Source: an uncultured Eubacteriales bacterium (GTDB lineage Bacteria > Bacillota > Clostridia > Christensenellales > Aristaeellaceae). Taken from it: 53,923 nucleotides of DNA. The translations under genes and the position numbers were made by a program. Location: the NCBI GenBank assembly GCA_902799045.1, contig CADBZH010000006.1:1-53923 (forward strand), given 5' to 3'. The notes under the pieces were generated by a model. The model made no database searches, had not been told where the DNA came from, and saw nothing but the letters and a program-made list of their open reading frames with translations. Positions 8,178 through 36,340 of the stretch are shown here, in pieces (position 1 is the stretch's first letter; each line of letters starts with the position of its first letter).

Positions 8178-8197
8178 GGCGACGCTATCGCGTCGCC
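8178..8197 (-). terminator. Hairpin overlapping the stop codon of the GGDEF fragment
   Basis: GGCGACGC (8178-8185), loop of four, GCGTCGCC (8190-8197): a perfect 8-bp stem that includes the stop codon of the leftward gene. On the minus strand GTTTCCC follows immediately, and TATTTTTTGATTTTT about 20 bases later. It is a plausible but not textbook terminator. Confidence 0.4.
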
Positions 8198-9258
8198 GCC
8201 CCCATGCTCTTGAGGAGCTGTTTCTCCTTGTACATCAGCGCGTCCGCCCTTTCAAACACGCTGCGCAGGCGCGCGTCCTTGCCCGGTTCAAATTCCGACA
8301 GGCCCGCGGAGATGACCACGTCGCCGGTGGCGATGTTGGCGACGGACAGCTCGTGCAGCGAATCCATCAGGTCTGCCCGCTCTTCAAAATCGCTGCCGGA
8401 CAGGTAGACCACGAACTCATCGCCGCCGTTCCGGTAGACGGGGCTGTGGGAGAAGATGCGACAGATCACCCGGCTCGCCTGCTTCAGGCGCTCGTCGCCG
8501 GCCTTGTGGCCCAGGGCGTCGTTGATGAATTTGAGGCCGTTCAAGTCGCAAACGGCGATGGCAAATTCCGCGGCGGTGCCGCCGGCAATCGCGCTGTCCA
8601 GCTCCTTCTCCTTCTCGGTATAGGCGTGGCGGCTCTTGACGCCCGTGAGGGAATCGCGGCTGGCCAGCTCCTGGACCGCGCCCAGTCTGGCCTCGTTGAA
8701 CCGCGCGCGCTCGCTGATCATGCGGAAGTTGCGGATCAGCATCGTCAGCGAAAGCGCGATCAGGAACACCACCACCGTCACGGCCCCGCCCGTGGACAGG
8801 CGCGCCCGCTGGATCTCACCGGCCACCGCCGCCGTCGAGGCGTCGCCGACGCCGTTTTCAGCGAAGAACAGAGCGATGTTCGTCATGCCGGTGCCCATCG
8901 CGGTGAGGAAACTCTGCACCAGGAACACCAGCGACACGAACAGCACCATCGTGAACAGTGCGATCCACACGACAATGGACTTGCCGAACCGATGCGCCCC
9001 GTCCGCCTTTAGCAGCCGATGGAAGTAGATGAAGCCCAGCACCGCCCAGACGATGAAGAAGAAATAGGATTCCCGCGCCATGGAGCCGGCGTCATAGAGG
9101 TTCGGCACCAGCAGGTAGATGCCGAAGCCGATCATGATGATCACGCCCGCGACGCCCAGCCAGCGCTCCCGGTGATCCCTGCGCTCCTTTCCCAGCCGCA
9201 TCGCGGAGGCGGAAACCAGGCCGTAGATCAGCGTGGCGCCGATGGTCGTCACGTCCAC
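8185..9258 (-). CDS. C-terminal part of a frameshifted permease-GGDEF protein: membrane segments and diguanylate cyclase
   Basis: 357 aa, beginning in frame at a GTG with MDVTTIGATLIYG, which matches the middle of the intact paralog at 16302-20261. It holds the last permease helices, an extra helix, a short extracytoplasmic stretch (about 130-160), a final helix, then a GGDEF domain with the intact motif RNGGDEF and CDLNGLKFINDALGH. The domain should make c-di-GMP if the protein is expressed. The preceding permease half is in another reading frame (9249-10382) because of a missing base near 9306. Translation from this internal GTG has no good ribosome binding site. Confidence 0.75.
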   Translation of the reverse strand: MDVTTIGATLIYGLVSASAMRLGKERRDHRERWLGVAGVIIMIGFGIYLLVPNLYDAGSMARESYFFFIVWAVLGFIYFHRLLKADGAHRFGKSIVVWIALFTMVLFVSLVFLVQSFLTAMGTGMTNIALFFAENGVGDASTAAVAGEIQRARLSTGGAVTVVVFLIALSLTMLIRNFRMISERARFNEARLGAVQELASRDSLTGVKSRHAYTEKEKELDSAIAGGTAAEFAIAVCDLNGLKFINDALGHKAGDERLKQASRVICRIFSHSPVYRNGGDEFVVYLSGSDFEERADLMDSLHELSVANIATGDVVISAGLSEFEPGKDARLRSVFERADALMYKEKQLLKSMGAATR

Positions 9259-10382
9259 GATCCAACCGATGGCGGTTCGTCCGAGGAACGGGAAAAACGC
9301 CGATACGCCGCCACCAGCAGGATGGCGCTTCCGGGGATCTGGCGGCTGTTCAGCTTGCCAAAGCGCCCGGGAAGGACACCGTCCCGCCCCATCGCGTAAA
9401 AGAGGCGGCTGACGGCAGTGATGTTGCCGATCAGGCTCGTGACGATCAGCGAAAGCAGCACCAGCATCAGCGTGACGACGCCAAAGGAGCCCATGTAGTG
9501 CTCCGCGGCGTAGAAGGCGGGCAGGCCCTTCAGGCCCTCCAGGTTGTCGTGGTCGCGGATGTAGTCAAGCCAGGAGGCGTACTCCGGCGGATAGGCCGTT
9601 GCCGAAAGCAGCGTGACGAATATGTGCAATACCGTGGTCGAAATGACGGAGATGAGCAGGATGCGGAAGAAGCGCGTATTCCTGAACCGGGTCTCCTCCG
9701 TCGAATGGGAGATGTTCTCAAAGCCGATGAACGCCCAGGGCGAAATCACCGCGATCTTCACGACCTGCGAAAACGCGGAGCGGTCCGGTACATAGGACGG
9801 CTCAAACCGCAGGCCGTTTTGCGCCGCCGCGAAGGCGAAGCAGATCACGATGCCCAGAGTGAAAACGATGGCCAGCACCGTCATGGACACGGCCATGGCG
9901 TGCTTCCAGCGGGCGCAGAGCAACGCCACGATCAGCAGGCAGGCGATGGAAAGCAGCGCCTCCCCCAGGTAGACGTCGTAGCCGAAGAGCGTATACAGGT
10001 GCCCGATTTTGAAGATATCCCCCAGTAAATAGCGCGCGAACAGCGGAATGGAGGTGGCGTTCGCCCAGAGCACGGCCAGGTAGGTCAGGCTGAGGAACCA
10101 GGCGGTCAGGAAGCCATAGTCGTGGCCCAGCGTCTCGCAGGCATAGGTGTACGCACCGCCGGAGCTGGGATAGACGTTCATCAGGTAAGCGTAATTGGCG
10201 GTGATGATCAGCATGATCAGGCCACCGACGATCATGCCGATGGCGCTGCCCCACGGCCCCGCCTGCGCCAGATAGGTATTGCTGGTGACGACCAGGGAGC
10301 CCCAGCCGATACTCGTGCCGATTGAAAACGCCCATGCTGCCGTCGGCGACAGATTCCGGGTCAGCTTTCTTTCGTCCTGCAC
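9249..10382 (-). CDS. N-terminal part of a frameshifted permease-GGDEF protein: APC-superfamily amino acid permease
   Basis: 377 aa with about ten hydrophobic helices. TM1 carries GTSIGWGSLVVTSNTYLAQA and TM6 FISPWAFIGFENISHSTEE-like sequence (here AVISPWAFIGFENISH), the regions that bind amino acids in the APC family. The last 19 residues after AILLVAA are frameshift junk. The start is GTG at 10382 with GAGG eight bases before it. It is transcribed from the promoter at 10467-10495. If made alone it would be a permease lacking its final helices, so function is doubtful unless the frame is restored. Confidence 0.75.
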   Translation of the reverse strand: MQDERKLTRNLSPTAAWAFSIGTSIGWGSLVVTSNTYLAQAGPWGSAIGMIVGGLIMLIITANYAYLMNVYPSSGGAYTYACETLGHDYGFLTAWFLSLTYLAVLWANATSIPLFARYLLGDIFKIGHLYTLFGYDVYLGEALLSIACLLIVALLCARWKHAMAVSMTVLAIVFTLGIVICFAFAAAQNGLRFEPSYVPDRSAFSQVVKIAVISPWAFIGFENISHSTEETRFRNTRFFRILLISVISTTVLHIFVTLLSATAYPPEYASWLDYIRDHDNLEGLKGLPAFYAAEHYMGSFGVVTLMLVLLSLIVTSLIGNITAVSRLFYAMGRDGVLPGRFGKLNSRQIPGSAILLVAAYRRFSRSSDEPPSVGSWT

Positions 10383-10466
10383 GTGCCCAGCCTCTTTTCA
10401 ACGGAGGATACCTCTCGCCAAGCGCGAGGCAAACGTGATCGCTGGATTCCATCCAAATCCATTTTT

Positions 10467-10495
10467 ATCATACCATATTCTCCCGCGGTTGGCAA
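10467..10495 (-). promoter_or_regulatory. Promoter of the permease-GGDEF gene
   Basis: Minus strand TTGCCA (10495-10490), 17-base spacer, TATGAT (10472-10467). It lies about 85 bases before the GTG start at 10382. Confidence 0.65.
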
Positions 10496-10610
10496 CTGTT
10501 TTCCGCACATCAGGTTACACACATGATTACATATAAAGCAAAATCGTCTCACACTTTTTTCGCTTTTCGGGAAATACAAGGGGTGCATGAAGGCATACGG
10601 AAGAACACCG

Positions 10611-10680
10611 CCCTCATTGCCGAAGGATCTGTTCGTAACGTCAAGAGGTTGCATTCTGCAAATCTCCCAGTTTTCCGTGG
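10611..10680. repeat. Partial copy of dispersed palindromic repeat (family R1)
   Basis: Contains CGAAGGATCTGTTCG followed by CGTCAAGAGGTTGCATTCTGCAAATC in two adjoining pieces and ends at TTTTCCGTGG. The matching GATCC arm on the left is missing or degraded. The tail matches, in reverse complement, the flank of the copies near 49.4 and 51.8 kb. Confidence 0.65.
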
Positions 10681-10754
10681 AGAACCGTTTTTTGCGCTTT
10701 TCGGGGGATTTGCGCGAAAAGCATTGTAACATTTTGAATTTTGGATTATTATGG

Positions 10755-10783
10755 TTGAATTAATTATAAAAGAATGCTATAAT
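10755..10783 (+). promoter_or_regulatory. Promoter of the PAS-GGDEF-EAL gene
   Basis: TTGAAT (10755-10760), a 17-base spacer and a perfect TATAAT (10778-10783), giving a leader of about 77 bases before the ATG at 10867. Confidence 0.75.
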
Positions 10784-10866
10784 GGAGCCACAACCGGCGC
10801 TGGGCGCGGTTGGCCGGGTCGAAAGCTGCATTTCGCGCGACCACGACGATCAAGCGAGGTTTGGTT

Positions 10867-13437
10867 ATGGACACCTATCAATTCAGCGACGCCGAACGCC
10901 GGGTCCTGGAGCGGATGAGCGCTCCGCTGGGCGTCTATCAGTATGTCAACCAGCGCGTGGTGGCGCTGGTATTTTCCGAGGGCTTCCGGCGGCTTTTCAA
11001 CTACGCGGATCTGGACGAGGCCTATCGCGACATGAACAGGGATATGTACAAGGATACGCATCCCGACGACACGGCGCGCATCTCGGAATCCGCCTGGCAC
11101 TTCGCCACCGCGGACAAGCCCTATGACATCATCTACCGCACCCGCAAGTGCGGCGGCGGCTATCACGTCATTCACGCCACCGGGGAACACGTGTTCACCG
11201 ACACGGGCGCGCGCCTTTCCTACGTCTGGTACATGGACGAAGGCGCCTATGTGGAGGATTCGGACGCCCATGGCACCCGCCTGAACCAAAAACTGAACGC
11301 CGCCCTGCACGAGGCGAGCTTCCTGAAGGCCAGCCGATACGACTATCTGACGGGCCTGCCCAGCATGACCTGGTTCTTCGAGCGGGCCGGGAGCGGCAAG
11401 GACGCCATCCTCCGGGAGGGCGGCAGTCCGACCCTGCTGTATCTGGATTTCAGCGGCATGAAGTATTACAACACGCGCCACGGCTTTGCCGAGGGCGACA
11501 AGCTGCTTCAGGCATTCGCGAAGCTGTTGGCGCGCACCTTCACCAGCGAAAACTGCTGCCGCATCAGTTCCGACCACTTTGTCGCCATCGCGCCGGAGGA
11601 GGGGCTTGAGGAGCGGCTGCAAAGCCTCATCGCGCAGAGCGAAGGTCTGAACGAAGGCCGTTCGCTGCCCGTCCACATCGGCATCTATCCCTCGCGCATC
11701 GAGCCGGTGCCCGCTTCCACCGCGTGCGACCGGGCGAAGGTGGCCTGCGACGCGCTGAAGAAGAACTACGCCTCCTGCTACGGCTTCTATACCCTGAAAA
11801 CGAGGGACAGCGCCGAGCATCGCCAGCACATTCTCTCAAACCTCGACCGGGCCATTCGGGAAAAGTGGATCCAGGTGTACTATCAGCCCATCGTCCGCGC
11901 CGTGAATGGCAAGGTGTGCGACGAGGAAGCTCTGGCCCGCTGGATCGATCCGCAGCGCGGCTTCCTTTCCCCCGCCGACTTCATCCCGGTGCTGGAGGAA
12001 TCCGGGCAGATCTACAAGCTGGATCTGTACGTGCTGGAGGAGGTGCTCGACAAGCTGAAGCGGCAGGAGAAGGCCGACTACTTCCTGGTGCCGCAGTCCG
12101 TGAACCTCTCCCGCTCCGACTTCAACGCCTGCGACATCGTCGAGGAGATTCGCCGCCGCGTGGACGCCGCGGGCGTTCGCCGCGAGCTGATCACCATCGA
12201 AATCACCGAGAGCACCGTCGGCAGCGATTTTGAATTCATGAAGGAGCAGATCGCCCGCTTCCGGAAGCTGGGCTTCCCGGTCTGGATGGACGACTTTGGC
12301 AGCGGCTATTCCTCGCTGGACGTGTTGCAGAGCATTCCCTTCGACCTGCTGAAGTTCGACATGAGCTTCATGAAGCGGCTGGACGAGGGCGAGGGCGGCA
12401 AGGTGATCCTGACGGAGCTGATGCGCATGGCCACGTCGCTGGGCGTGGATACCGTCTGCGAGGGCGTGGAAACCGAAGCGCAGGTGCGCTTCCTGCGGGA
12501 AATCGGCTGTTCCAAGCTTCAGGGCTATTACTTCTGCAAGCCCATTCCCATGAGCGAGATCCGGGCGCGCTATGAGAAGGGCGTCCAGATTGGGTTTGAA
12601 AACCCGCAGGAATCTGCCTACTACGAATCCATCGGCCGCGTGAACCTCTACGACCTGACGGTGATCGCCCAGGAGGACAGCTTTCGCCTGGAGAACGTGT
12701 TCAACACGCTGCCGATGGGCATACTGGAGATCCGCGGCGACCGTCTGCGGTTTGTCCGGTCAAGCCACACCTTTCGGGACTTCATTCGCCGCTTTTACGG
12801 CCTGAACATTTCCGACGGAAAGACCGAGGTGTCGGCCACGAGCGAGAAGGTGGGCAGCGCGCTGCTGAGCCTGATGCGCTGCTGCTGCGACAGCGACAGC
12901 CGCGCCTTCTTTGACGAGCCGATGAGGGACGGCTCCGTCGCCCATGCCTTCGCCCGCCGCATCAGCTTCAATTCCGTGACCGGCGCGTCCGCGGTGGCCA
13001 TGGCGGTGCTCTCCATCACCGAGCCAAACGCGGGCGCCACCTACGCCGGGATCGCCCGCGCGCTGGCCGCCGACTATTACAACATCTATTACGTGGACCT
13101 GGAAACCGACCGCTTCATCGAATACACCTCCCCCGTCGGCGGCGAGGAGCTGGCCATGGAACGCCACGGCGAGAACTTCTTCGACGCCTGCGTGCGGGAA
13201 GCCCATCGCATCTACGAGCAGGATCGCGAGGCCTTCTACGCCGCATTCTCCAAGGAGCAGATCATCCGCGCGCTGGATGAGCAGGGCGTCTTCACCATGA
13301 CCTATCGCCTGGTGGACACCGGCAAGCCGGTCTACGTGAACATGAAGGTCACGCGCATGCAGCCGGACAAGCGGCACATCATCATGGGCATCAGCATCAT
13401 TGATTCCCAGATGAAGCACGATCGCGGAGGAGAATGA
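10867..13437 (+). CDS. PAS-GGDEF(degenerate)-EAL protein, probable c-di-GMP phosphodiesterase
   Basis: 856 aa, cytoplasmic. Residues about 15-130 are PAS-like. A GGDEF-type domain (about 155-310) has SSDHF (234-238) in place of GGDEF, so it should not make c-di-GMP. The EAL domain (about 322-570) looks active: EEALARW (353-359), ITIEITES, WMDDFGSGYSSLD, CEGVETEAQ and LQGYYFCKP are all present. About 280 C-terminal residues contain two further PAS-like regions (VFNTLPMGILEI and YYNIYYVDLETDRFIEY). I chose ATG 10867 because GAGG lies eight bases upstream. An in-frame TTG at 10810 lacks this. It is divergent from the broken permease-GGDEF gene, which it may have opposed enzymatically. Confidence 0.88.
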   Translation: MDTYQFSDAERRVLERMSAPLGVYQYVNQRVVALVFSEGFRRLFNYADLDEAYRDMNRDMYKDTHPDDTARISESAWHFATADKPYDIIYRTRKCGGGYHVIHATGEHVFTDTGARLSYVWYMDEGAYVEDSDAHGTRLNQKLNAALHEASFLKASRYDYLTGLPSMTWFFERAGSGKDAILREGGSPTLLYLDFSGMKYYNTRHGFAEGDKLLQAFAKLLARTFTSENCCRISSDHFVAIAPEEGLEERLQSLIAQSEGLNEGRSLPVHIGIYPSRIEPVPASTACDRAKVACDALKKNYASCYGFYTLKTRDSAEHRQHILSNLDRAIREKWIQVYYQPIVRAVNGKVCDEEALARWIDPQRGFLSPADFIPVLEESGQIYKLDLYVLEEVLDKLKRQEKADYFLVPQSVNLSRSDFNACDIVEEIRRRVDAAGVRRELITIEITESTVGSDFEFMKEQIARFRKLGFPVWMDDFGSGYSSLDVLQSIPFDLLKFDMSFMKRLDEGEGGKVILTELMRMATSLGVDTVCEGVETEAQVRFLREIGCSKLQGYYFCKPIPMSEIRARYEKGVQIGFENPQESAYYESIGRVNLYDLTVIAQEDSFRLENVFNTLPMGILEIRGDRLRFVRSSHTFRDFIRRFYGLNISDGKTEVSATSEKVGSALLSLMRCCCDSDSRAFFDEPMRDGSVAHAFARRISFNSVTGASAVAMAVLSITEPNAGATYAGIARALAADYYNIYYVDLETDRFIEYTSPVGGEELAMERHGENFFDACVREAHRIYEQDREAFYAAFSKEQIIRALDEQGVFTMTYRLVDTGKPVYVNMKVTRMQPDKRHIIMGISIIDSQMKHDRGGE

Positions 13438-13480
13438 AGCCATACAATGGTTCTTCACGTTTTCCTGTGGTATTCAGTCA

Positions 13481-13632
13481 ACTCGCTCAGTCGCCGTCGG
13501 CGCCAGCTCCCTCAAAGAGGGAGCCATTACGGGAGCCAGAACGGGAGCCCTTTGGCGATGACGACAGGTGTATGAGCCTCCCTCACCGAGGGAGGTGGCA
13601 GCCCGCAGGGCTGACGGAGGGAGTCGGCATCC
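13481..13632. repeat. Palindromic repeat family R2 (GAGGGAG type)
   Basis: Contains AGCTCCCTCAAAGAGGGAGC (13505-13524), an almost perfect hairpin, and CCTCCCTCACCGAGGGAGG (13577-13595), another, followed by TGGCAGCCCGCAGGGCTGACG and GGAGGGAG. Similar CTCCCTC/GAGGGAG palindromes are dispersed in many Clostridia. Only one clear copy lies in this window. Confidence 0.65.
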
Positions 13633-13699
13633 CTCAACATTCCGTGAAGAGCCCAAAAAATCCACAGAGCGTCTCTTTCGACGCCGGTCGCCGCACAAC

Positions 13700-13770
13700 G
13701 CACAGATCCTTCGCCTCGCACGGGATAACGGGCCTATTGGCGTCATCCCGGGCGAAGCGAAGGATCTGCT
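13700..13770. repeat. Dispersed palindromic repeat R1, copy 2
   Basis: Perfect 12-bp arms CAGATCCTTCGC (13703-13714) and GCGAAGGATCTG (13757-13768) around a GC-rich centre with CGGGAT and ATCCCG. It lies just after the end of the serine dehydratase gene. Confidence 0.75.
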
Positions 13771-13791
13771 TGCACGGTTGGGCATCATAAT

Positions 13792-14988
13792 TCAGTTTGC
13801 GTAATAGATCTGCGCGAGGCCGCCGTGGCTGGTCTCGCGATACTTTTCGTCCATGTCCTTGCCGGTGCGGTACATCGTGGCCACCACCTCGTCGAAGGAG
13901 ATCTTCCGGGTGGAGAACAGAAAGCGCGACAGGTTCACGGAGCTGATGGCCCTCATGGCGGCGACGGCGTTGCGCTCGATGCAGGGAATCTGCACCAGGC
14001 CCTTCACCGGGTCGCAGGTCAGGCCCAGGTTGTGCTCCATGGCGATCTCGGCGGCGTATTCGATCTGGTCGATATTCAGCCCATACAGCGACGCCAGCGC
14101 CGCCGCGGTCATCGAGCAGGCGCTGCCGATCTCAGCCTGACAGCCGCATTCCGCGCCGGAAATGGAGGCGTTGGTGCGGATCACGTTGCCGATCAGCGCC
14201 GCCACGGCCAGGGCGTCGAGGATCTCCTCCTCCGGGAAGCCGCGATCCGCGTACATGTAGTACATCACGGCGGGCAGCACGCCGCAGCTGCCGCAGGTGG
14301 GCGCGGTGACGACGATGTTCTCGTCGGCGTTCTCCTCGCTGACGGCGTAGGCATAGGCGGCGATCACGCGGTTCATGGTCACGTCGGCGCTCTCGTTGTA
14401 GCAGCGCTTTTCAAACAGCGTCTTGGCCTTGCGCGCCACGCCCAGCCCGCCGGGCAGCGTGCCCTCGGCGACAAGGCCCCGCCGGATGGAATCCTTCATG
14501 GCTTCCCAGACGGTCTTCAGGCCGTCGCGCAGGCGATCATCCTCCATGCGATAGATGAACTGCGCCAGGTTCAGGCTGCGGCGCTTGCAGATTTCCAGGA
14601 TCTCGGTAAAATTCCGCTGGGGATAGACCTCCACCTCGTCCTCGGAGGCCTCGCCCTCGATGCGAATGGAGCCGCCGCCGATGGAGAAGATGCGGTTCTG
14701 GCCGATCCGCTCGCCGCCCTTGAAGGCCTCGAACAGCATGGTGTTCGGATGCGGCAGGTCCTGCTCCTCGCGGTCGAACACCACCTCCGCCCCCGGCAGG
14801 CCGGACACGATTGCCTTGCCGGTGCCGTGGCCCTCGCCGGTGAAGGCCAGCGAGCCGTACAGCGTCACGCGAAAGCGGTCCGCCTGGGGATAGCGCGCGC
14901 CGAAGATCTGCGCGGCGTGGTACGGGCCGACGGTATGCGAGGACGAAGGCCCGTTGCCGATCTTGTAGACACTCTTGATCGTTTTCAT
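13792..14988 (-). CDS. L-serine ammonia-lyase (iron-sulphur-dependent serine dehydratase)
   Basis: 398 aa, a single-chain fusion of the beta and alpha domains. It converts L-serine to pyruvate and ammonia in the cytoplasm. The N-terminal domain begins SVYKIGNGPSSSHTVGP, the family signature. The alpha domain has TAPTCGSCGVLPA (about 228-240), GAECGCQAEIGSACS (278-292) and CDPVKGLVQIPC (325-336), which supply the [4Fe-4S] cysteines. It is slightly shorter than the enteric enzymes of about 455 aa. It starts 12 bases after the serine transporter gene, so the pair forms a serine uptake and degradation unit, which may itself be the tail of the long signalling operon upstream. Confidence 0.93.
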   Translation of the reverse strand: MKTIKSVYKIGNGPSSSHTVGPYHAAQIFGARYPQADRFRVTLYGSLAFTGEGHGTGKAIVSGLPGAEVVFDREEQDLPHPNTMLFEAFKGGERIGQNRIFSIGGGSIRIEGEASEDEVEVYPQRNFTEILEICKRRSLNLAQFIYRMEDDRLRDGLKTVWEAMKDSIRRGLVAEGTLPGGLGVARKAKTLFEKRCYNESADVTMNRVIAAYAYAVSEENADENIVVTAPTCGSCGVLPAVMYYMYADRGFPEEEILDALAVAALIGNVIRTNASISGAECGCQAEIGSACSMTAAALASLYGLNIDQIEYAAEIAMEHNLGLTCDPVKGLVQIPCIERNAVAAMRAISSVNLSRFLFSTRKISFDEVVATMYRTGKDMDEKYRETSHGGLAQIYYAN

Positions 14989-15000
14989 GGCAGGCCCTCC

Positions 15001-16227
15001 TTACAGCGGCAGCTTCCTGCCCTGCTTCTTCCAATCGTGGAATTCCGCGGTGGCCGTGAACAGCACGTCGCCGGACGAATTCAGCGCCGTCTCAAGCGAA
15101 TCCTGGATCACGCTGATGATGAAGCCGACGCCGACCAGCTGCATGGCGATGTCATTGGAAATGCCGAACAGCGAGCAGCCCAGCGGCACCAGCATCAGCG
15201 AGCCGCCCGCCACGCCGGAGGTGCCGCAGGCGGAGAACGTCGCCACGATGCTCAGGAAGATGGCCATCGGCAGCGTGACGTTCACGCCGGTGGTGAAGGC
15301 CGCGGCCAGCGAGAAGATGGTGATCGTCACAGCCGCACCGTCCATGTTGATGGTGGAGCCCAGCGGGATCGAAACGGAATACAGGTCCTCGTCCAGGCCC
15401 AGGTCCTTGCACAGCTCCATGTTCACGGGGATGTTGGCGGCGGAGCTGCGGGTGAAGAAGGCGGTGACGCCGCTCTGCCTCAGGCAGCGGAACACCAGCG
15501 GATAGGGGTTGTGCCGCAGCACCAGGAACACGATCAGCGGATTGATCACCAGCGCGGTGAACAACATCGTTCCCACCAGCAGGGCGATCAGATGGCCATA
15601 GGTCCTGAAGATATCCACGCCGCTGGTGGCGACGGCCGTGTACATCAGGCCCAGGATGCCGAGCGGGGCGCAGGCGATCACCCAGCGCACCACGGTGGAC
15701 ACCGCGTCGGCCAGGTTCTCCATCATCTGCTTGGTGGCGGGAGCGGCCAGCTTCAGCGCGATGCCGAACACCACGGCCCAGAACAGTATGCCGATGTAGT
15801 TCGCCCTGGCGAGGGCGTCCACGGGGTTGGCGATGATGCTCCTGAGCAGGTTCTTCACCACCTCGGCCATGCCCTGCGGCGCGGCGGACGCGTCAGCGGC
15901 GTCCAGGCCGGTCAGCGGAATGGTGACCGGGAACAGGAAGCTGGTGAAGACCGACACGATGGCGGCGCAGAGCGTGCTGAGCAGATACAGCACGATCACC
16001 GTGCGAAACTTTTGCATGTTGCCGCCCTTGGAGTTCGCCAGCGACGAAGCCACCAACACGAACACCAGAATCGGCGCGACGGCCTTCAGCGCGCCGACGA
16101 ACAGCTCGCCCAGCTCGCCGATCCACGTGAGCTTCGGCGCGATAAAGCCCAATGCTGCGCCGATGACCAGCCCGATCAGTATGCGCACGATCAGGCTCAT
16201 TGAGTTCCACTTCTTGATGATACCCAT
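15001..16227 (-). CDS. sstT: Serine/threonine:sodium symporter SstT
   Basis: 408 aa, dicarboxylate/amino acid:cation symporter family, about eight membrane helices with two re-entrant loops. N-terminus [20 protein letters not shown] and the segments [17 protein letters not shown] and [20 protein letters not shown] are typical of SstT. It imports L-serine and L-threonine with sodium. GGGAGGAAG lies just before the ATG. Only 74 bases separate it from the permease-GGDEF-REC-EAL gene upstream. I see no promoter there, and the small hairpin present (around 16251-16270) has no U tail, so read-through from the signalling operon is likely. Confidence 0.93.
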
Positions 16228-16301
16228 GTTTTCTTCCTCCCATCAACCGACCATCCGGCCGGTTCGTTTCCCCCCTGCGTCGTCAAACATATCGATCGAT
16301 A

Positions 16302-19300
16302 TCAGCCATTCTGATTCATGCGCTCGACGATAAAGCGGTCGAATTCCTCCGGCGGCACGGGCCTGGAGAAGTAATAGCCCTGCACCAGGTCGCAGCCCAG
16401 CTCCCTCAGGGCCAGGTACTGCTCCTCGGTCTCCACGCCCTCCGCCGTGACGGGCACGTTCAGGTATTTCGCGATATCGATGATCAGCTCGATCATGCGC
16501 ACATCCTTCTTTTCGCCAAAGGCGCTGCGCACGAAGCTCATGTCCAGCTTCAGCACGTCGATGGGCAGATGAGAGAGCATGCCCAGCGAGGAATAGCCGG
16601 TGCCGAAGTCGTCCATCTCGATGCGGAAGCCCATGCCCACGCTGCGCAGCTCCCTGGCCATCAGGATCACTTGGTCGGAATCGCCGGTATAAGCCGATTC
16701 CGTGATCTCCAGCATCAGGTCCTGCGCGGTGAGCTGATAGCAGTCCAGGATCTCCCTGAAGATGTTCTTCAGGTTCGGCGTGAGCATGTCGATGCGCGAA
16801 ACGTTCACCGAGACGGGAATGGAGAAGCTGTAGCGATCCTTCCAGGCGCGCACCTGCGCCGCCGTCCGCCGCCAGACGTACTGGTCCAGCTCGAGGATCA
16901 GGCCGTTGTCCTCCAGCAGCGGGATGAACACGCCGGGGCTGATCAGGCCCAGCTCCGGGTGGTCCCAGCGCACCAGCGCCTCCGCGCCGGAGAGCACCGG
17001 CTTCTCGGGGCGGATGTCAAACTTCGGCTGGAGGTACACCTTGAAGCAGTCGCTCTTCAGCGAGCCCCGGAAATCCTCCAGCAGGCGCGACTTGTACAGA
17101 TCCGCCTTGTGCATCTCGTCGTCATAGATGCCCACGTTAGTCAGGTAGCCGGCCTTCACGGTGTTGGCCGCCGTGCGGGCATAGTCAAAGCGGCGCTCGA
17201 TCTCCAGCGTCTTGTCCACGTTCATGTAGACGCCCATGCGCAGCCGCACGCGGTTCGAGGCGGCGTCCTCCTCGCTCAGGCCCCCGGCGATGCTGCTCAG
17301 CAGCGCCTCGTAATCCTCGCGATGCGGGCAATAGATGAAGAAGGTGTCCGCGCTGCGGCGACAGGCGACGCCGCCCAGGTCGCGCGCGATCTTTCGGATG
17401 CCGTTGCCGATGCGCCCGAGCACGCCGTCGCCGTACTGCTTGCCATAGCGCTCGTTGATCATGTGGAAGCGGTTGATATCCACCACGATGGCGTCCATCG
17501 GCATATCCATATAGTGCCGGTCATAGAGCCGCACGTAGCGCAGGAAGTAATCCAGGTTCAACAGCTTCGTCAGGCTGTCGCGCTCGGTGGAATGGATGAT
17601 GTTGCGCTTTTCGGAAAGCTCGATGCAGCGGGTGGCGCGCGCCCGAACGATCTCCCAGGAGGGATAGGGCTTGGGGATGAAGTCCATCGCGCCCAGCTTG
17701 AGGCATTCCACCTCTGCGCTCTGATCCGCCGTGAGCACGATGACGGGGATGTCCCGTATCTCCTGGGATTCCGCCATCACCTTCAGCACTTCCATGCCGC
17801 TCATGCCCGGCATCTGCAGATCCAGCATCACCAGGGCCAGCTCGCCCTTGTGGGTCTTCATCTGCTCCAGCGCCTCGGAGCCGTCGGAGGCGTAGAGCAG
17901 TTCATAGGCGTCCTGAAGCATGTTGCCCAGCATCATCAGGTTCACGGCCTCGTCCTCGACGATGAGGATGTGGCGCTTGAGGTGCATGACCTCGGATTCC
18001 TCCACCATCGGGATGATGGCCTTCGCCTCCTCCTCGAGGGAGTCGCGGGTCACCGCGCCGAGGCCCTTGAGCAGCTGCTTTTCCTCATACATGCGCTCGT
18101 CGGCGCGCTCAAACACGTCGTGATAGCTCTTGTCCTCGCCGGGCCGGTAATCCGACAGGCCGCCGGACACCACCACGCCGCCGCTGCCGATGTTGGCGAC
18201 CGAACGGTCATGCAGCGCCAGCAACAGCTCCTTGCGGATGATGAAATCGCGTCCGGTCATGATGATGACGAACTCGTCGCCGCCGATGCGGTAGACCGGG
18301 CTGTGCTGGAAGATATCGCAGATCATCTCGAAGGCCTTGCGGATGTACTCGTCGCCCGCCTTGTGGCCCAGCGTGTCGTTGATCTTCTTCAGTCCGTTCA
18401 CGTCGCAGACCACCACGGCGAACCGCTCGGGCGTCCCGTCGCCGATCTTCTGGTCGATCTCCTTTTCGTGCAGCATATAGGCGTGCTTGCTCTTGGCGCC
18501 GGTCATCGGGTCCTTGAAGGCGGTCTCCCGGGCGGCGTCGCGCTCCTGCACGGCTTTGTTCTCCCACTTCTGCATCGAGAGGTGGTTGATGAGCATCGCG
18601 CCGAGCGCCATGACGAACAGGCCGATGATCAGGAGCGTGTTCATCGTGTTCGTGCGATGGATCTGCTGGATCTGATCCTGGATGAACTCCGATTCAGCCT
18701 GCGGGGAGTCGGCTTCGTCCGACTCGCCGGAATAGTATTCCTGCACAGCGTAGATGGCGTCGTTCGTGGTCTGCTCGTCCACGCGGCCGGACCAGATCAT
18801 CGCCATGAACACCACCAGCGCCAGCAGCACGATCCACACGATGATGGCCTTTCCAAAGCGGCGGGTGTGGTCGCGCCTGACTATCTGCCGGAAGTAGAAG
18901 AAGCCGGCCACCGTCCAGACCATGAACAGGATGTAGGTCTCCGTCGCGAGCATCGCGTCTCCGAACAGGTTCGGGAACAGCAGGTACACGCCGAACACCA
19001 GCATCACGGCAAAGCCGATCAGGCCGGTGACGGTCTCGCGGCGCCTGTTTTGCTTCTGCGCGGTCTTCAGCGCGGCGGCGGAGACGAAGCCGTAGAGCAT
19101 CGTCGCGCCGAGGGTGGTGACGTCGACGATCCAGCTGATGGCCGTGCGGCCAACGAACGGGATCAAGGCGCTCACCGCCGCCACCAGCAGCATGGCGTGG
19201 GCGGGAATGCCCTTGTCGTTCAGCGCGGCAAACCGCTGCGGCAGGATGCCGTCGCAGGCCGTGGCGAAGAACAGCCGGCTCAGCGAGCGCAGGTTGCCGA

Positions 19301-20261
19301 TCAGGCTGGTCACGACCAGCGAGAGCAGCGAGGCCATCAGCACGGCCACGCCGAAGCCGCCCAGATAGTGATGGGCGGCATAGAAGGCGGGTAAGCCCTC
19401 GATGCCGGAATAGCTGTCCAGGTTGCGGATGTAGTCCAGCCAGCTTTCGCAGCCCTCGGGATAGGCCGAGATGCTGAGCAGCGTGACGAACAGGTACAAC
19501 GCCGTAGACGTCAGCACCGAGATCACCAGGATGCGGTGCAGCTTGTCGCGCTTGAAGCTGAATTCCTCCGCCGAGTGGGTGATGCTCTCAAAGCCGATGA
19601 ACGCCCAGGGCGAGATGAACGCGATCTGAAGCGTCTGGGAGAAGGCGTTGCGATCCGGCAGGAACGCCGGCTCCCAGCTTCCCCCGCGCTCCGCCACCGC
19701 GACGACGAAGCACAGCGCGATGCCCGCCGTGAACAGCAGCGACAGGCCGACCATCATGTGCGCGGTCAGCCGGCTGCTGCGAACGCTCAGCCAGGTCACC
19801 GCCGCAATGGCCGCCAGCGTCAGCAGCGCCTCGCCGAGGTAGACCTCATAGCCGAACAGCGTGAACAGGTAGCCTGTCTTGAAGGTCTCGCCGATGAAGA
19901 ACCGGGCGAACAGCGGCAGGCTCGTGGCGTTGGCCCAGAACATGGCGATGTACGTCAGGCTCAAAAACCAGAACACCAGGAAGGCCTGGTCGTAGCCGAA
20001 CACCTCCTTCGTGTAGTCGTAGATGCCGCCCGCCCGGGGATACTGGCTCGACATGAACGAGAAGTTTCGGCAGATGACCAGCATCAGCGCCATGCCAATG
20101 AGCAGGCCGAGGATGCTGCCGAGGGGCCCTGCCTGGGCCAGGTAGGTATTGCTGGTGACGACCAGCGATCCCCAGCCGACGCTGGTGCCCACTGCCAGGG
20201 CCCACGCCGCCGCCGGTGAAAGATGTGGTCTGAGACTTGTGTTCGGGGTTTGATCTGTCAT
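16302..20261 (-). CDS. APC permease-GGDEF-REC-GGDEF(degenerate)-EAL fusion protein
   Basis: 1319 aa from the ATG at 20261, which has AGGGGAAAGGG upstream. A GTG at 20294 (GTGA overlap with the previous stop) is the alternative start. Residues about 10-460 are a full APC amino acid permease (VGTSVGWGSLVVTSNTYLAQ in TM1, FISPWAFIGFESITHSAEE in TM6). Two more helices (about 470-490 and 540-560) enclose a 50-residue extracytoplasmic segment. Then come GGDEF (GGDEF at 660-664, intact), REC (D814, LTAD, K864), a second GGDEF with SADTF (970-974), and EAL (EAL 1094-1096, EITES, MDDFGTGYSSL, AEGVETEEQ). Predicted role: an amino-acid-responsive, phosphorylation-controlled enzyme making and degrading c-di-GMP. 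Confidence 0.88.
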   Translation of the reverse strand: MTDQTPNTSLRPHLSPAAAWALAVGTSVGWGSLVVTSNTYLAQAGPLGSILGLLIGMALMLVICRNFSFMSSQYPRAGGIYDYTKEVFGYDQAFLVFWFLSLTYIAMFWANATSLPLFARFFIGETFKTGYLFTLFGYEVYLGEALLTLAAIAAVTWLSVRSSRLTAHMMVGLSLLFTAGIALCFVVAVAERGGSWEPAFLPDRNAFSQTLQIAFISPWAFIGFESITHSAEEFSFKRDKLHRILVISVLTSTALYLFVTLLSISAYPEGCESWLDYIRNLDSYSGIEGLPAFYAAHHYLGGFGVAVLMASLLSLVVTSLIGNLRSLSRLFFATACDGILPQRFAALNDKGIPAHAMLLVAAVSALIPFVGRTAISWIVDVTTLGATMLYGFVSAAALKTAQKQNRRRETVTGLIGFAVMLVFGVYLLFPNLFGDAMLATETYILFMVWTVAGFFYFRQIVRRDHTRRFGKAIIVWIVLLALVVFMAMIWSGRVDEQTTNDAIYAVQEYYSGESDEADSPQAESEFIQDQIQQIHRTNTMNTLLIIGLFVMALGAMLINHLSMQKWENKAVQERDAARETAFKDPMTGAKSKHAYMLHEKEIDQKIGDGTPERFAVVVCDVNGLKKINDTLGHKAGDEYIRKAFEMICDIFQHSPVYRIGGDEFVIIMTGRDFIIRKELLLALHDRSVANIGSGGVVVSGGLSDYRPGEDKSYHDVFERADERMYEEKQLLKGLGAVTRDSLEEEAKAIIPMVEESEVMHLKRHILIVEDEAVNLMMLGNMLQDAYELLYASDGSEALEQMKTHKGELALVMLDLQMPGMSGMEVLKVMAESQEIRDIPVIVLTADQSAEVECLKLGAMDFIPKPYPSWEIVRARATRCIELSEKRNIIHSTERDSLTKLLNLDYFLRYVRLYDRHYMDMPMDAIVVDINRFHMINERYGKQYGDGVLGRIGNGIRKIARDLGGVACRRSADTFFIYCPHREDYEALLSSIAGGLSEEDAASNRVRLRMGVYMNVDKTLEIERRFDYARTAANTVKAGYLTNVGIYDDEMHKADLYKSRLLEDFRGSLKSDCFKVYLQPKFDIRPEKPVLSGAEALVRWDHPELGLISPGVFIPLLEDNGLILELDQYVWRRTAAQVRAWKDRYSFSIPVSVNVSRIDMLTPNLKNIFREILDCYQLTAQDLMLEITESAYTGDSDQVILMARELRSVGMGFRIEMDDFGTGYSSLGMLSHLPIDVLKLDMSFVRSAFGEKKDVRMIELIIDIAKYLNVPVTAEGVETEEQYLALRELGCDLVQGYYFSRPVPPEEFDRFIVERMNQNG

Positions 20262-20290
20262 GGGCTTGCCCTTTCCCCTGTTCGGTGTCG

Positions 20291-23200
20291 TCACTGCTCA
20301 CCATGCCGCGCGATCAGTCGCGCCATCGTCTCGTAGAGCCTGTCCGGCTCAATGGGTTTGGAAAGGTGCGCGTTCATGCCGGACTGGAGGGAGCGCTCCA
20401 CGTCCTCGTCGAACACATTCGCCGTCATGGCGATGATGGGGATCGACTTCGCGTCCGTATGATCCAGCGCGCGGATCGCCCGGGTGGCGGACAGGCCGTC
20501 CATCACCGGCATGCGCACGTCCATCAGGATCGCGTCGTAGTAGCCCGCCGGATGCTCTGAGAACAGCTTCACGGCGATCTCGCCGTTGGCCGCGTGCTCG
20601 CTCTCCACGTCCTCCAGCTCCAGGAGGTCCGCCAGGATCTCGGCGTTCTGCTCCACGTCCTCGGCCATCAACACCCGGCGTCCCGCCAGGACGCCCTCCG
20701 CAGCGGGCAGCTCCGCCGCTTCTTCCGGGTCCGGCGCGACGCCGCTCTTTTTCAGCAGCACCGCGTGGATCTGCCTGAGCAGGCTGTCTGAGAACAGCGG
20801 CTTGGCCATGATGCCGTCCACGCCGTTCGCCGTGGCCTCGTCCTCGATGATATCCCAGTTGTAGCCGGTCAGCATGATGACCGCCGTCTCGCCACCGTCG
20901 AAGGCGCGCACCCGGCGCACCAGCTCCAGGCCGTTCATCCCGGGCATCCTGTAGTCCGTCAGCAGCAGCCCAAAGGCGTTCCCGGCGTCTCGCGCCGCGC
21001 GGAAGCGGCGCAGCGCCTCGTTCGGGTCGGTGGCGGTCTCGGCCTCGATGCCCAGGCTGTTCAGCACCACCTGGGTTTGCTCGCAGGCGATCTCGTCGTC
21101 GTCCACCACGAAGGCGCGCAGGCCTTCCGGCAGCACCAGGCCGTGCTCCTGCGGCGCGCTGCGCCCGGAGGCCTTCAGCGTCACCGTCACCGTGAAGGTG
21201 GAGCCCACGCCCTTTTGGCTCTTGACGTCGATATCGCCGTTCATCATCTCCACGAAGCTCTTCGTGATGGACATGCCCAGGCCGCTGCCGCCGCAGCGGT
21301 TGGTGCTGGTGGCGTCCTCCTGGCTGAAGGCCTCGAACAGCCTGGGGATGAATTCCTCGTCCATGCCGATGCCGGTGTCCTTCATCGTGAAGCGCATCGT
21401 GCACATGCCCTCGAAGCTGGCGATCTGCTCCACGGTGAGGGTCACCTCGCCGGGGGTGTCCGTGAATTTCACGGAGTTGCCCAGGATGTTGATCAGCACC
21501 TGCTTCAGCTTCATGTCGTCGCCGCAGTAGAAGTCACAGACGTTGCCGACGATCTGGCACTCATAGCGCAGGCCCTTGTCCTGGCACTGGCCGTTGATGA
21601 TGATGTTGATCTGGTCCAGAAACTCCCGGAACGAGAATTCCTCGTTCTTCAGCACCATCCTGCCGGATTCGATACGGCTCATGTCCAGTATGTCGTTGAT
21701 GAGGCCCAGCAGGTGCCTGGCGCTGGCACCGATCTTTTCCAGGTGATCCCGGGTACGGGGCGTCAGGTCCGGGTCCCTCAGGGCGATGTTGTCCAGGCCG
21801 ATGATGGCGTTCATCGGCGTGCGGATCTCGTGGCTCATGTTGGAGAGGAAGCTGGTCTTGGCGCGGCTGCTCTCCTCAGCCAGCGCCTTTTCCACCTCGA
21901 CCTGCCGCTCGCGCTTTTGCATCTGGGTGTAGATCTCCAGCAGGATCAGCAGCGCAACGACGATCAGCACGATCATGATCAGGCTCGAATTCCCCAGCGA
22001 ACGGTCCACCTGGTCCAGCGTCTCCTGGATATAGGTGAGGTCGTGCTCCTCCGAAGCGACGGCCAGGTCCACGCCCGCTTCCTCAAGCCTGTCCATGTAG
22101 TATTCCTGGACCGGCGTGATGGCGCGCTCGATGCTCGCCTCCGTCGACTGGCGCATCCAGACGCTGGAGGTGAATATGATCAACCCCAGCAGCACGACCC
22201 AGGCCACGATGGACCGGCCCATGCGCCGCTGTTTGTCGCGCCTGAGCAGCTGCCGGAAGACCACGAAGCCCAGGATGCCCCAGGCCGCGAGGATCAGGTA
22301 GGACTCGGTGGACAGCGTCTTCACCGAGGTCAGGTTCGGGATCAGGAATTCCAGCGCGAACAGCACCGACACGACGAGGCCCATTAGGCCCATCGCCGCC
22401 ATGCGCCCGTTCTTCTCCTGCCGGGCCGTCTTCCACGCCGAAGCGGCCGTGAAGGCGTAGGCGATGGTCGCGCCGACGGTGGTCACATCCACGATCCAGC
22501 TGATGGCGGTGCGCCCGAAGAAGGGCAGCGCCACCGACACGGCCAGGATCGCGAGGATGGCGCGCCGGGGCACGCCGCGGTCATCCAGCTCGCCCATCCG
22601 GCCGCCGATCATGCCGTCCTCCGACAGCGCGCGCAGCAGGCGGCTCAGGGCGATGTAGTTGCCGACGAGCCCCGTGAGGATCGCGCAGAGGGAGGCGACG
22701 CCCAGAAGCGCCGCGCCCGCGCCACCCATGGCAGTCTGAGCCGCGAAGAAGGCGGGCTGGGAGGCGACGCCTGAATAGTCGCCCAGCCTGGTCACATACG
22801 CCGTCCAGTCGGAGACGTCCTCCGGCTGCGCAGACGCGGCCATCACGCCCAGGGCGATGTAGGCGATCGCCGCGGTCACGAGGCCAGCGGCCATGATGGC
22901 GAAGGATCGCTTCATTGGGAACTTCGCCTCGGCGGCGGAGTGGGAAATGGATTCAAAGCCCACGAAGGCCCAGGGAGCCAGGGCGAAGATCGTAAACGTG
23001 CCGCCCAACGCGGAATGCTGCGGCGCAAACGCCGGCGCGAGCGCCGCGGCGGAAGAGCGCCCCAGGGCGGCGACGAAGCAGACGATGACGCCGCCCAGCA
23101 GCAGCACCGCCGCGACGATCTGCACCCGAACGGCGAGGCTCCTGCGCAGGCAGAACAGCGCCGCGATCATCAGCGAGGCGACGGCCAGCAGGATCTCGCC

Positions 23201-23635
23201 CATGTAGATTTGGTAGCCCGCGATCTCATATTCAAAGCCGAACTGGAACGTGCCGCCCAGCAGCGTCCGCGCGATCAGCGGCAGCGCCGTGGCGTTGGCC
23301 CAGATGATGGCAATATAGGTCAGGATCAGAAACCAGGCGCTCAGAAAGCCGTGATCGTAGCCGAAGCACCGACTGGTATAGGTATAGGTGCCGCCGCCGT
23401 CCGGGTAGCGGTTCATCAGATAGTGATAGTTCACCCCGAGGATCAGCATCACCAGCGCGCCAACGCCGATGCCCAGGGCCGTCCCCGCCGGGCCGGCGAT
23501 GGGGAGGAAGGTGGTTCCGGGCATGACAAACGCGCCCCAGCCCACGCTGCAGCCAAAGGCCAGGGCCCAGGCGCCCAGGGACGACAGATAGGGGGCAGGC
23601 TTGCGCCCTCTGGAATGATCCGGCGATCGATTCAA
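20291..23635 (-). CDS. APC permease-histidine kinase-REC-REC fusion protein
   Basis: 1114 aa. Residues about 15-460 form an APC amino acid permease (GWGAFVMPGTTFLPIAGP in TM1, FALAPWAFVGFESISHSAAE in TM6). A helix (about 475-492), an extracytoplasmic segment of about 55 residues and another helix (551-568) follow. Then a kinase: HisKA NMSHEIRTP with H602, N-box N720, DTGIGMDEEF (753-762), GGSGLGMSI. REC1 has D894 with T923 and K945. REC2 has D1039 with T1071 and K1093. All key residues look intact. The start is TTG at 23635. An in-frame stop lies just upstream and AGGAG lies 11 bases before. It follows the Hpt gene by 40 bases. Confidence 0.88.
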   Translation of the reverse strand: MNRSPDHSRGRKPAPYLSSLGAWALAFGCSVGWGAFVMPGTTFLPIAGPAGTALGIGVGALVMLILGVNYHYLMNRYPDGGGTYTYTSRCFGYDHGFLSAWFLILTYIAIIWANATALPLIARTLLGGTFQFGFEYEIAGYQIYMGEILLAVASLMIAALFCLRRSLAVRVQIVAAVLLLGGVIVCFVAALGRSSAAALAPAFAPQHSALGGTFTIFALAPWAFVGFESISHSAAEAKFPMKRSFAIMAAGLVTAAIAYIALGVMAASAQPEDVSDWTAYVTRLGDYSGVASQPAFFAAQTAMGGAGAALLGVASLCAILTGLVGNYIALSRLLRALSEDGMIGGRMGELDDRGVPRRAILAILAVSVALPFFGRTAISWIVDVTTVGATIAYAFTAASAWKTARQEKNGRMAAMGLMGLVVSVLFALEFLIPNLTSVKTLSTESYLILAAWGILGFVVFRQLLRRDKQRRMGRSIVAWVVLLGLIIFTSSVWMRQSTEASIERAITPVQEYYMDRLEEAGVDLAVASEEHDLTYIQETLDQVDRSLGNSSLIMIVLIVVALLILLEIYTQMQKRERQVEVEKALAEESSRAKTSFLSNMSHEIRTPMNAIIGLDNIALRDPDLTPRTRDHLEKIGASARHLLGLINDILDMSRIESGRMVLKNEEFSFREFLDQINIIINGQCQDKGLRYECQIVGNVCDFYCGDDMKLKQVLINILGNSVKFTDTPGEVTLTVEQIASFEGMCTMRFTMKDTGIGMDEEFIPRLFEAFSQEDATSTNRCGGSGLGMSITKSFVEMMNGDIDVKSQKGVGSTFTVTVTLKASGRSAPQEHGLVLPEGLRAFVVDDDEIACEQTQVVLNSLGIEAETATDPNEALRRFRAARDAGNAFGLLLTDYRMPGMNGLELVRRVRAFDGGETAVIMLTGYNWDIIEDEATANGVDGIMAKPLFSDSLLRQIHAVLLKKSGVAPDPEEAAELPAAEGVLAGRRVLMAEDVEQNAEILADLLELEDVESEHAANGEIAVKLFSEHPAGYYDAILMDVRMPVMDGLSATRAIRALDHTDAKSIPIIAMTANVFDEDVERSLQSGMNAHLSKPIEPDRLYETMARLIARHGEQ

Positions 23636-30209: not shown

Positions 30210-31211
30210 TCACGCCCGCTTCGGGGGACGGTTCTGGGCCATGACGCCCGCCAGCGCGTGAGGCACGTAGTGCTCCTCCAGGAACGCGATCTCCTCATCG
30301 GTCAGCTCCAGCTCCACGGCCTTCGCCGCGCCTTCAACGTGGCGGAACTTCGTCGCGCCCACCACCGGAGCGGTCACCTTTGTGAGCAGCCACGCCAGGG
30401 ATATCTCCGTCATGGAGACGCCGCGCTTCTCCGCCAGCTCTGAGACGCGATTGATGATGACCTCGTCCTGCTCCTTCGTTGCGTCATACTTGAATTTGGC
30501 GTAGGCGTCCTTCTCCAGGCGGTTGCTGGTCTCCCCCGGCTTCCTCGCCAGGCGGCCCGCGGCCAGCGCGCTGTAGGGCGTCAGGGCGATGTTTTCCTCA
30601 TTGCAATAGGGAACCATCTCGCGCTCCTCCTCGCGGAAGAGCAGGTTGTAGTGGCCCTGGATGGAGACGAACTTCGCCCATCCCTCACGTTCGGCGATGG
30701 CGTTGGCCTTGGCGATTTGCCAGGCAAAACAGTTGGAAATGCCGATGGCCCGCGCCTTGCCGGCCCTGACCTGTCGGTTCAGCCCGTCCAGCACGTCCTC
30801 GATGGGCGTGTTCCAGTCCCACATGTGATAGATGTACAGATCCACATACTCCATGCCCAGGTTTTTGAGGCTCTGGTTCAGCATGTTTTCAATGTGCTGC
30901 TGGCCGGTGACGCCCGCTTCGATCTCCTCCCGCGTCCGGGGCAGGAATTTCGTCGCCAGCACCACCTCGTCGCGCCGCGCGAAATCCCGCAGCGCCCGGC
31001 CCACGTACTGCTCGCTGGTGCCGTTTTGATAAGCGATGGCCGTGTCATAGAAGTTGACGCCCAGCTCCAGGCCGTGCTTGATGATCTCCCGGGAGTGCTC
31101 CTCGTCCAGGGTCCAGCCGTGCTGGCCCTGCGCGGCTTCGCCGAAACCCATGCAGCCCATGCACACGCGGGAGACCTTCAGGTCAGAGTTGCCGAGTTTC
31201 GTATACTTCAT
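30210..31211 (-). CDS. Aldo/keto reductase
   Basis: 333 aa TIM-barrel NADPH-dependent oxidoreductase, cytoplasmic. The catalytic tetrad is recognisable: NFYDTAIAYQNG (D and Y), LATKFLP (K) and YIYHMWDW (H). The C-terminal cofactor-binding part follows (VTAPVVGATKFRHVEGA). Members of this branch reduce sugar aldehydes or ketones. The ATG overlaps the stop of the GH78 gene (ATGA) and has GGAGG before it, so the two are translationally coupled. A role in handling sugars released by the rhamnosidase is an inference from this coupling. Confidence 0.92.
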   Translation of the reverse strand: MKYTKLGNSDLKVSRVCMGCMGFGEAAQGQHGWTLDEEHSREIIKHGLELGVNFYDTAIAYQNGTSEQYVGRALRDFARRDEVVLATKFLPRTREEIEAGVTGQQHIENMLNQSLKNLGMEYVDLYIYHMWDWNTPIEDVLDGLNRQVRAGKARAIGISNCFAWQIAKANAIAEREGWAKFVSIQGHYNLLFREEEREMVPYCNEENIALTPYSALAAGRLARKPGETSNRLEKDAYAKFKYDATKEQDEVIINRVSELAEKRGVSMTEISLAWLLTKVTAPVVGATKFRHVEGAAKAVELELTDEEIAFLEEHYVPHALAGVMAQNRPPKRA

Positions 31212-33850: not shown

Positions 33851-33895
33851 GCGCGTCTCCTCGTTTCTGTCTTAAATACGGGCAGCGGCGCATCC

Positions 33896-36280: not shown

Positions 36281-36340
36281 GTCCATGCCCTCCAGTCTTC
36301 GCAATGGAAAAAGTCCTTCATAGCGATGGCCTGCATCTAT

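Follow-up and report, generated by a model that had tools for sequence, protein, structure and literature searches.

Putative receptors derived from APC-type amino-acid permeases, with exchangeable signaling outputs, in rumen and gut bacteria

Introduction

Transporter-receptor fusions have been called rare in bacteria (CbrA; PMC13022988). The closest described systems are the SLC5/STAC sensor kinases (CbrA, CrbS/MxtR, RpuS), in which an N-terminal transporter is followed by signaling domains; the substrate of CbrA is the amino acid histidine (PMC7918813, PMC13022988). Here we describe a stretch of 53,923 bases from an uncultured Eubacteriales bacterium (the window: contig 6, bases 1-53923, of a 54-contig genome of 2.9 Mb). 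Its minus strand encodes three paralogs, whose common N-terminal part is a 12-helix APC permease followed by a two-helix hairpin and whose outputs are histidine kinase-REC-REC, GGDEF-REC-GGDEF-EAL, and, in a gene interrupted by a frameshift, GGDEF. On balance, the best reading of these proteins and of their relatives is that the permease senses a ligand and that a helix couples it to the output.

The SLC5/STAC kinases combine an SLC5 transporter of 13 transmembrane helices (TM) with a soluble four-helix STAC domain and PAS, whereas the window family combines an APC permease with a transmembrane hairpin (PMC7918813, PMC13022988; these two papers, PMC5764959, PMC5803215, and PMC11109136 are cited from excerpts). 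The outputs described with SLC5 are kinases, and Actinobacteria also have proteins that combine HATPase with GAF and PP2C; in the window family the output is a cyclase, a phosphodiesterase, or a kinase. PMC7918813 contains neither "GGDEF" nor "diguanylate". In the window proteins, Pfam at E 0.001 gave AA_permease families and no SSF. At the place of STAC the structural model has two long helices, and no Pfam family was above its cut-off there, in a search that need not have included a STAC model. Ks-Amt5 is also a transporter turned receptor and fused to a kinase, with transport lost and ligand binding kept; it differs in that an Amt trimer is fused directly to the kinase, without a PAS, HAMP, or STAC linker, and the excerpt mentions no hairpin (PMC5764959). 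Pfam at E 0.001 gave no ammonium transporter family in the window proteins. Fusions of ammonium transporters to GGDEF domains reportedly exist, but the word "GGDEF" is absent from both PMC10433425 and PMC5764959. By its transporter domain, the family lies outside both the SLC5/STAC and the Amt sensor families.

Ssy1 of the yeast SPS sensor is reportedly an APC-superfamily permease that signals amino acids. It and Gap1 are eukaryotic and, to our knowledge, carry no fused enzyme. Gap1 is likewise an APC-superfamily permease signaling amino acids (PMC11109136). The 5TMR kinases resemble the window family in that their receptor part has a transporter fold (that of the S-component), but the fold is another one and the relatedness to transporters was seen by structure; they have been called the first prokaryotic transceptor, the term being defined by fold (PMC11109136). 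GkApcT, CATs, LATs, and AdiC are without an output domain, and GkApcT has Glu115, Lys191, and Asp237, all replaced in the window family. Full-text literature searches, which did not reach most subscription papers or the domain-database listings, turned up no fusion of an APC permease to a GGDEF, EAL, HD-GYP, or kinase output, and "permease" occurs 0 times in a review with a census of cyclic di-GMP (c-di-GMP) inputs (PMC8846402). A preliminary description of the window, made from its letters, had recognized no described family of this kind, and within that coverage the search agrees. What is new is the APC permease as a putative interchangeable receptor; the idea of a transporter as a sensor is already known.

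Results

Three fusion proteins in one locus

The features of the three genes are as follows.

20291..23635, minus strand: hybrid kinase of 1114 amino acids, APC permease-two-helix hairpin-HisKA-HATPase-REC-REC (Pfam domains)
22220..23584, minus strand: permease part of the kinase protein, residues about 18-472
21911..22219, minus strand: hairpin of the kinase protein (two extra helices and loop)
20321..21892, minus strand: kinase core and two receivers (Pfam)
16302..20294, minus strand: protein of 1330 amino acids, APC permease-hairpin-GGDEF-REC-degenerate GGDEF-EAL (Pfam; GTG start)
18855..20219, minus strand: permease part of the GGDEF/EAL protein
18519..18854, minus strand: hairpin of the GGDEF/EAL protein
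18060..18515, minus strand: first GGDEF domain of the GGDEF/EAL protein, GGDEF motif intact
17637..17972, minus strand: receiver domain of the GGDEF/EAL protein (Pfam)
17115..17600, minus strand: second GGDEF domain of the GGDEF/EAL protein, degenerate (SADTF)
16359..17075, minus strand: EAL domain of the GGDEF/EAL protein
9249..10382, minus strand: split APC-GGDEF gene, first piece, encoding most of the permease
8185..9258, minus strand: split APC-GGDEF gene, second piece, encoding the permease end, the hairpin, and GGDEF with intact motif

The receptor part has the 12-TM fold of APC transporters. AA_permease_2 (PF13520) scores 111.6, 75.4, and 103.5 bits in the window proteins against a curated cut-off of 27, with the piece of the split gene spanning positions 2-332 of 427 in the profile. 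In the kinase protein, AA_permease_2 lies at residues 17-456, HisKA at 592-658, and HATPase at 705-820, followed by two receivers; the H-box, HATPase, and receivers of a hybrid histidine kinase are all present, and the hairpin matches no Pfam family above cut-off. Given the GTG start, the kinase gene and the GGDEF/EAL gene overlap by 4 bases. The open frame of the second piece of the split gene extends to 9564. Compared with close relatives, the two pieces have amino-acid-changing and silent rates (dN and dS) of 0.148 and 0.600, and of 0.201 and 0.636; because dN is well under dS in both, the split is recent or an error. Domains and open reading frames (ORFs) thus bear out the three paralogs with an APC permease, two extra helices, and different outputs that had been read from the letters.

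Reality and distribution of the fusion

A pattern scan of 84,980 species genomes returned at least 597 stretches, at least 575 of which were relatives of any kind; the 80 best loci were kept. The best ORF was a fusion in 79 of these. In the remaining one (L006) the frame changes, with a stop after the hairpin and GGDEF-REC-GGDEF-EAL in the next frame. The outputs were GGDEF-REC-GGDEF-EAL (43), GGDEF (32), HD-GYP (3), and histidine kinase-REC-REC (1), and four of the ORFs reach past a contig end. By record title, 66 loci belong to Bacillota, 11 to Actinomycetota (Coriobacteriia), and one each to Chloroflexota, Pseudomonadota, and Spirochaetota, these three by the label of a metagenome-assembled genome (MAG) alone. 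Two named isolates are included, Lachnospiraceae bacterium AC2029 (L049, a contig of 3.9 Mb) and Ruminococcus sp. YE71 (L062); nearly all other loci are MAG or uncultured by title. Assembly joins of adjacent genes, which would have undone the preliminary description, are ruled out by single-ORF fusions in 79 of the best 80 loci, two of them from named isolates. Chance neighbors are ruled out by the permease tree and the fixed linker length described below.

Some rumen lineages are rich in members of the family, whose occurrence is otherwise patchy. Matches at 1e-20, which include partial and stand-alone ones, were found in 31 of 60 near genomes and in 26/28 genomes of the window's own genus (its own counted). 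In an even sample of the phylum, 18/398 genomes matched at 1e-40, with a long fused frame in at least 4/398 (its own, G420, G305, and G088) and permease frames of 411-532 amino acids in the rest of the matches. In the class sample at least 6/291 matched at 1e-100, five of them fused. The phylum and class counts are lower bounds, since just three or four candidates were scored per genome. One locus (L106:1580-7399, minus strand) holds a frame of 1940 amino acids with about 550 residues ahead of the permease and kinase-REC-REC behind it; those front residues were without a Pfam match at E 0.01.

Permease tree and changes of output

The tree was built from 138 permease parts, hairpin excluded (150 matching ORFs, minus one short and 11 duplicates). 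A branch with support 100 parts 26 stand-alone permeases from 112 fused rows. The same split was obtained in a more thorough tree made from 71 of these rows (support 100/100), seven stand-alone rows being among those omitted by hand. With the stand-alone permeases as the root, the earliest branches are three kinase lineages, followed by a clade of 93 rows (support 100), mainly of GGDEF types. Inside this clade kinase output arises twice (L107; L106 with L078 and L111), and so does HD-GYP (L024; L041 with L062), a fourth output kind beyond the three of the window. The placement of L113, on a long branch, is unsure. Two early branches of five rows each (type B) have a shorter hairpin, and their profile match stops near 495-508; their outputs are kinases, or none in the copy on contig 13 of the window's own genome. 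That copy (L001:2933-4621, minus strand) is a type B permease of 562 amino acids with hairpin, short tail, and no output domain.

With six labels, including stand-alone and no output, 16 changes fall on the tree (floor 5). Among the 110 rows with an output there are 13, of which 8 are merely gain or loss of the REC-GGDEF-EAL tail; pooling GGDEF with GGDEF-REC-GGDEF-EAL leaves 5. The receptor part thus appears to have been joined once in this sample, the kind of enzyme to have switched at least five times, and the EAL tail to have come or gone more often. The related loci and the tree agree with the proposal of a real family sharing one permease-hairpin receptor part. Swapping of outputs, also proposed, is visible on the tree and gains HD-GYP, although full swapping is toned down as its main story because 8/13 changes concern the tail.

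Ligand site of the permease

Positions are numbered as in GkApcT, with the site as given in PMC5803215 and transferred by profile alignment. Among 102 type A rows, Gly42 and Gly44 were each retained in 101, Ala232 in 102, and Arg327 in 100. Thr43 was replaced by Trp in 100/102 and Phe231 by Trp in 102/102. The GWG motif is not specific to the receptors, as Trp stands at Thr43 in 20/26 stand-alone rows too. The ligand-site motifs of TM1 and TM6 were nearly invariant across outputs, so the site motif has been retained rather than lost, and three gate/pocket positions were unlike those of the stand-alone kin. Asp237, whose Ala mutant in GkApcT loses all transport (PMC5803215), was Glu in 102/102 type A rows, a mild change, and Asp in 25/26 stand-alone rows; Thr241 was His in 96/102 and, in the stand-alone rows, Gln in 26/26; Met321 was Asn in 60 and Met in 37 of 102, and Phe in 25/26 stand-alone rows. 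The GGDEF/EAL protein (GTG numbering) has G40, W41, and G42 in TM1, W230, E236, and H240 in TM6, and N334 in TM8. Loss of the TM5 lysine (Lys191) and the TM3 glutamate (Glu115) was ruled out as a mark of the receptors, both being absent from type A rows and stand-alone kin alike.

The three window paralogs are identical at 14 of 16 tabulated site positions, differing at Lys191 and Ile234, and by this agreement they probably see one ligand class. Absence of Glu115 hints at a neutral rather than a cationic ligand.

These residues bear on whether the proteins are true transceptors, whose permease still transports and whose flux or cycle occupancy sets the output, as proposed for CbrA. The retained glycine motifs, the aromatic gate of TM6, and the TM8 arginine favor such an arrangement, and CbrA itself transports histidine and carries a kinase (PMC7918813). 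The Glu at Asp237 speaks against it, and so does the lack of Glu115 and Lys191, though these are absent from stand-alone kin too. Since three gate/pocket positions differ from those kin, binding driving signaling seems likelier than transport driving it, and we regard a transceptor as rather unlikely.

Hairpin, helix, and linker

In an AlphaFold model of the GGDEF/EAL protein, two long helices with a turn form the hairpin, and the second is continuous over residues 534-592, reaching the GGDEF domain. The distance from a conserved Asn at the end of TM14 (82/84 rows) to DxLTG was 25 in 69/84 and 18 in 15/84 GGDEF rows, and nothing else; it is 25 in the split window gene. The two lengths differ by one heptad, a single change on the tree. 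In 12 of the 13 type A kinases the distance to the H-box was measured, and it was 33 in nine and 324-325 in three (L078, L106, L111), in which about 290 additional residues separate the hairpin from the kinase; PAS_4 was found in L078 and L111. In the thirteenth, L107, where the kinase was regained within the GGDEF clade, 28 letters lie between QK after TM14 and the H-box (by eye), as in the window kinase. The HD-GYP proteins, from two separate acquisitions, have a distance of 40 in one and 47 in two. A fixed linker fits a helix that passes on rotation or tilt in register, and coupling probably runs through a helix of fixed length.

Helix-loop-helix sensors are common ahead of GGDEF or HisKA. 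The two hairpin helices of the model, with a turn between them, could thus form such a sensor, the permease being mainly a membrane anchor or dimer former. But the outer loop (37-86 residues) is the least conserved part (0.37), against nearly invariant ligand-site motifs, and the type B hairpin is short. A sensor in the loop is accordingly quite improbable; the poor conservation of this extracytoplasmic segment points instead to the permease as the likely sensor.

Output domains and selection

The GGDEF domain next to the permease keeps the exact motif in 80/84 rows, including both window GGDEF proteins. In the further GGDEF domains the exact motif was read in 0 of 49, eight of which are unreadable by pattern. 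The EAL motif is present in 44/44 and DDFG in 42/44, five of 49 rows ending before the EAL domain. The H-box pattern was found in 19/20 HisKA matches among 22 kinase rows, and the HD-GYP motifs in 3/3. In five pairs of close relatives, amino-acid changes were fewer than silent changes in the permease, GGDEF, EAL, and kinase core; one receiver was less constrained (dN 0.144, dS 0.208).

KimA is reportedly an APC-fold transporter regulated by cyclic di-AMP (c-di-AMP), and c-di-AMP-bound KimA was among the structural matches. A reverse flow of this kind, with cytoplasmic nucleotide binding or phosphorylation regulating uptake by the permease, is nonetheless very improbable here, as catalytic motifs are kept in four enzyme kinds, including receiver-bearing kinases, where a mere nucleotide sensor needs none, and RxxD was found in 0/20 four-letter stretches at the usual place of the product site before GGDEF.

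A domain of about 120-135 amino acids recurs at window positions 13042-13434 (plus strand), in L009 (about 10018-10380), and in L078 between PAS and HisKA. Many GGDEF-REC-GGDEF-EAL receptors end in this domain, as does a PAS-GGDEF-EAL protein (10867-13437). The two copies searched had no Pfam match above cut-off, and a profile of three copies gave 54 matches in 2275 ORFs, 37 being receptors.

Gene neighborhood and genome setting

The neighboring genes are as follows.

25740..27287, minus strand: histidine kinase-REC, first gene of an array recurring in the genus
24049..25743, minus strand: REC-GGDEF-EAL, overlapping the preceding histidine kinase-REC gene by 4 bases
15001..16227, minus strand: SDF-family sodium symporter, 74 bases downstream of the GGDEF/EAL receptor gene
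13792..14988, minus strand: serine dehydratase, alpha and beta parts in a single chain

The domain order of the REC-GGDEF-EAL neighbor equals that of the tail of the GGDEF/EAL receptor. Seventeen loci were compared for the array. The order histidine kinase-REC, REC-GGDEF-EAL, APC-kinase is present in L094, L096, L097, and L098, and cut by a contig end in L095; REC-GGDEF-EAL, APC-kinase, APC-GGDEF-REC-GGDEF-EAL is present in L090. L003 has a REC-GGDEF-EAL gene and, after it, kinase, EAL, and GGDEF fusions in tandem; in the last of these fusions Pfam recognizes the GGDEF domain over its first half alone.

The symporter, presumably similar to SstT, and the dehydratase (13792-16227, minus strand) lie just behind the EAL receptor and are a possible pair for uptake and breakdown of serine. 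Serine was rejected as the ligand of the family: tblastn of both proteins against 111 loci, with flanks of at most about 6-10 kb often shortened by contig ends, gave a single weak SDF match (24% identity, E 7e-4, L032). Because the context is not kept across these loci, serine is a hint for this organism alone.

The genome has 24 GGDEF matches (one under cut-off), eight of them on this 54 kb contig. A search for the c-di-GMP-I riboswitch gave no match in it and is uninformative, as all 14 control genomes were silent too. An Rfam scan of the window gave no family at its gathering score. HisKA_7TM sensor regions at 33896-36304 and 41245-43518 (minus strand) are joined to an HD-type phosphodiesterase and to GGDEF-EAL, respectively, so the contig has a second membrane sensor that is combined with different c-di-GMP outputs. 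An aldo-keto reductase, an alpha-L-rhamnosidase, and a GH5 cellulase-family enzyme lie amid signaling genes at 30210-38052 (minus strand).

Discussion

At the level of sequence, the anatomy, the single origin in this sample, and the swapping of outputs are established. We propose a family of receptors derived from an APC-type amino-acid permease. As the kept motif suggests, the permease would bind a small amino-acid-like ligand from outside in the usual site of the LeuT fold. Closure of the site would shift TM12 and the two added helices. The second of these, running straight through the membrane to the output, would toggle it by piston, tilt, or rotation in a dimer, as the modeled helix and the constant linker length suggest. 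The outputs would be c-di-GMP synthesis (GGDEF), a two-way enzyme (GGDEF-REC-GGDEF-EAL), c-di-GMP breakdown (HD-GYP), and a phosphorelay (histidine kinase-REC). The window kinase may also phosphorylate the EAL protein, which carries a receiver and whose gene directly follows that of the kinase. Net transport by the receptor form would be expected to be small or nil, which is the weakest step.

Several observations weigh against ligand sensing by the permease with coupling through a helix. The split APC-GGDEF gene may be dead in this organism. Loss of Lys191 and Glu115, residues of transport and proton coupling in GkApcT, marks no receptor switch in the alignment. The heptad step from 18 to 25 is a single event on the tree, so the argument from register draws mainly on the lack of any other indels. 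The insert of about 290 residues in L078, L106, and L111 means that the direct helix is not universal. The kinase hairpin is less constrained (dN 0.25-0.27, dS 0.40-0.50), and the local neighbors hinting at serine are not conserved in the 111 loci. In the window's own genome PilZ gave no match in a search positive in 5/14 control genomes, nor did flagellin in one positive in 4/14.

More generally, we tentatively suggest that the APC fold can serve as a general, non-transporting ligand-binding module of signaling: one fusion, a pocket retuned once, a helix fixed by the heptad, and outputs plugged in repeatedly in several gut groups. The family is large, with close stand-alone transporter kin, at least four output kinds, and outputs that can be measured, such as c-di-GMP. 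Two questions become testable with it: how a transporter turns into a receptor, through a handful of gate and pocket residues compared between fused and stand-alone forms, and how the motion of a LeuT fold reaches a cytoplasmic enzyme, through the length of the helix. The findings suggest that rumen and gut bacteria have made an old nutrient transporter serve as an exchangeable nutrient sensor, and that rumen Clostridia, Coriobacteriia, and Erysipelotrichia may sense amino acids directly by permease-like receptors feeding c-di-GMP.
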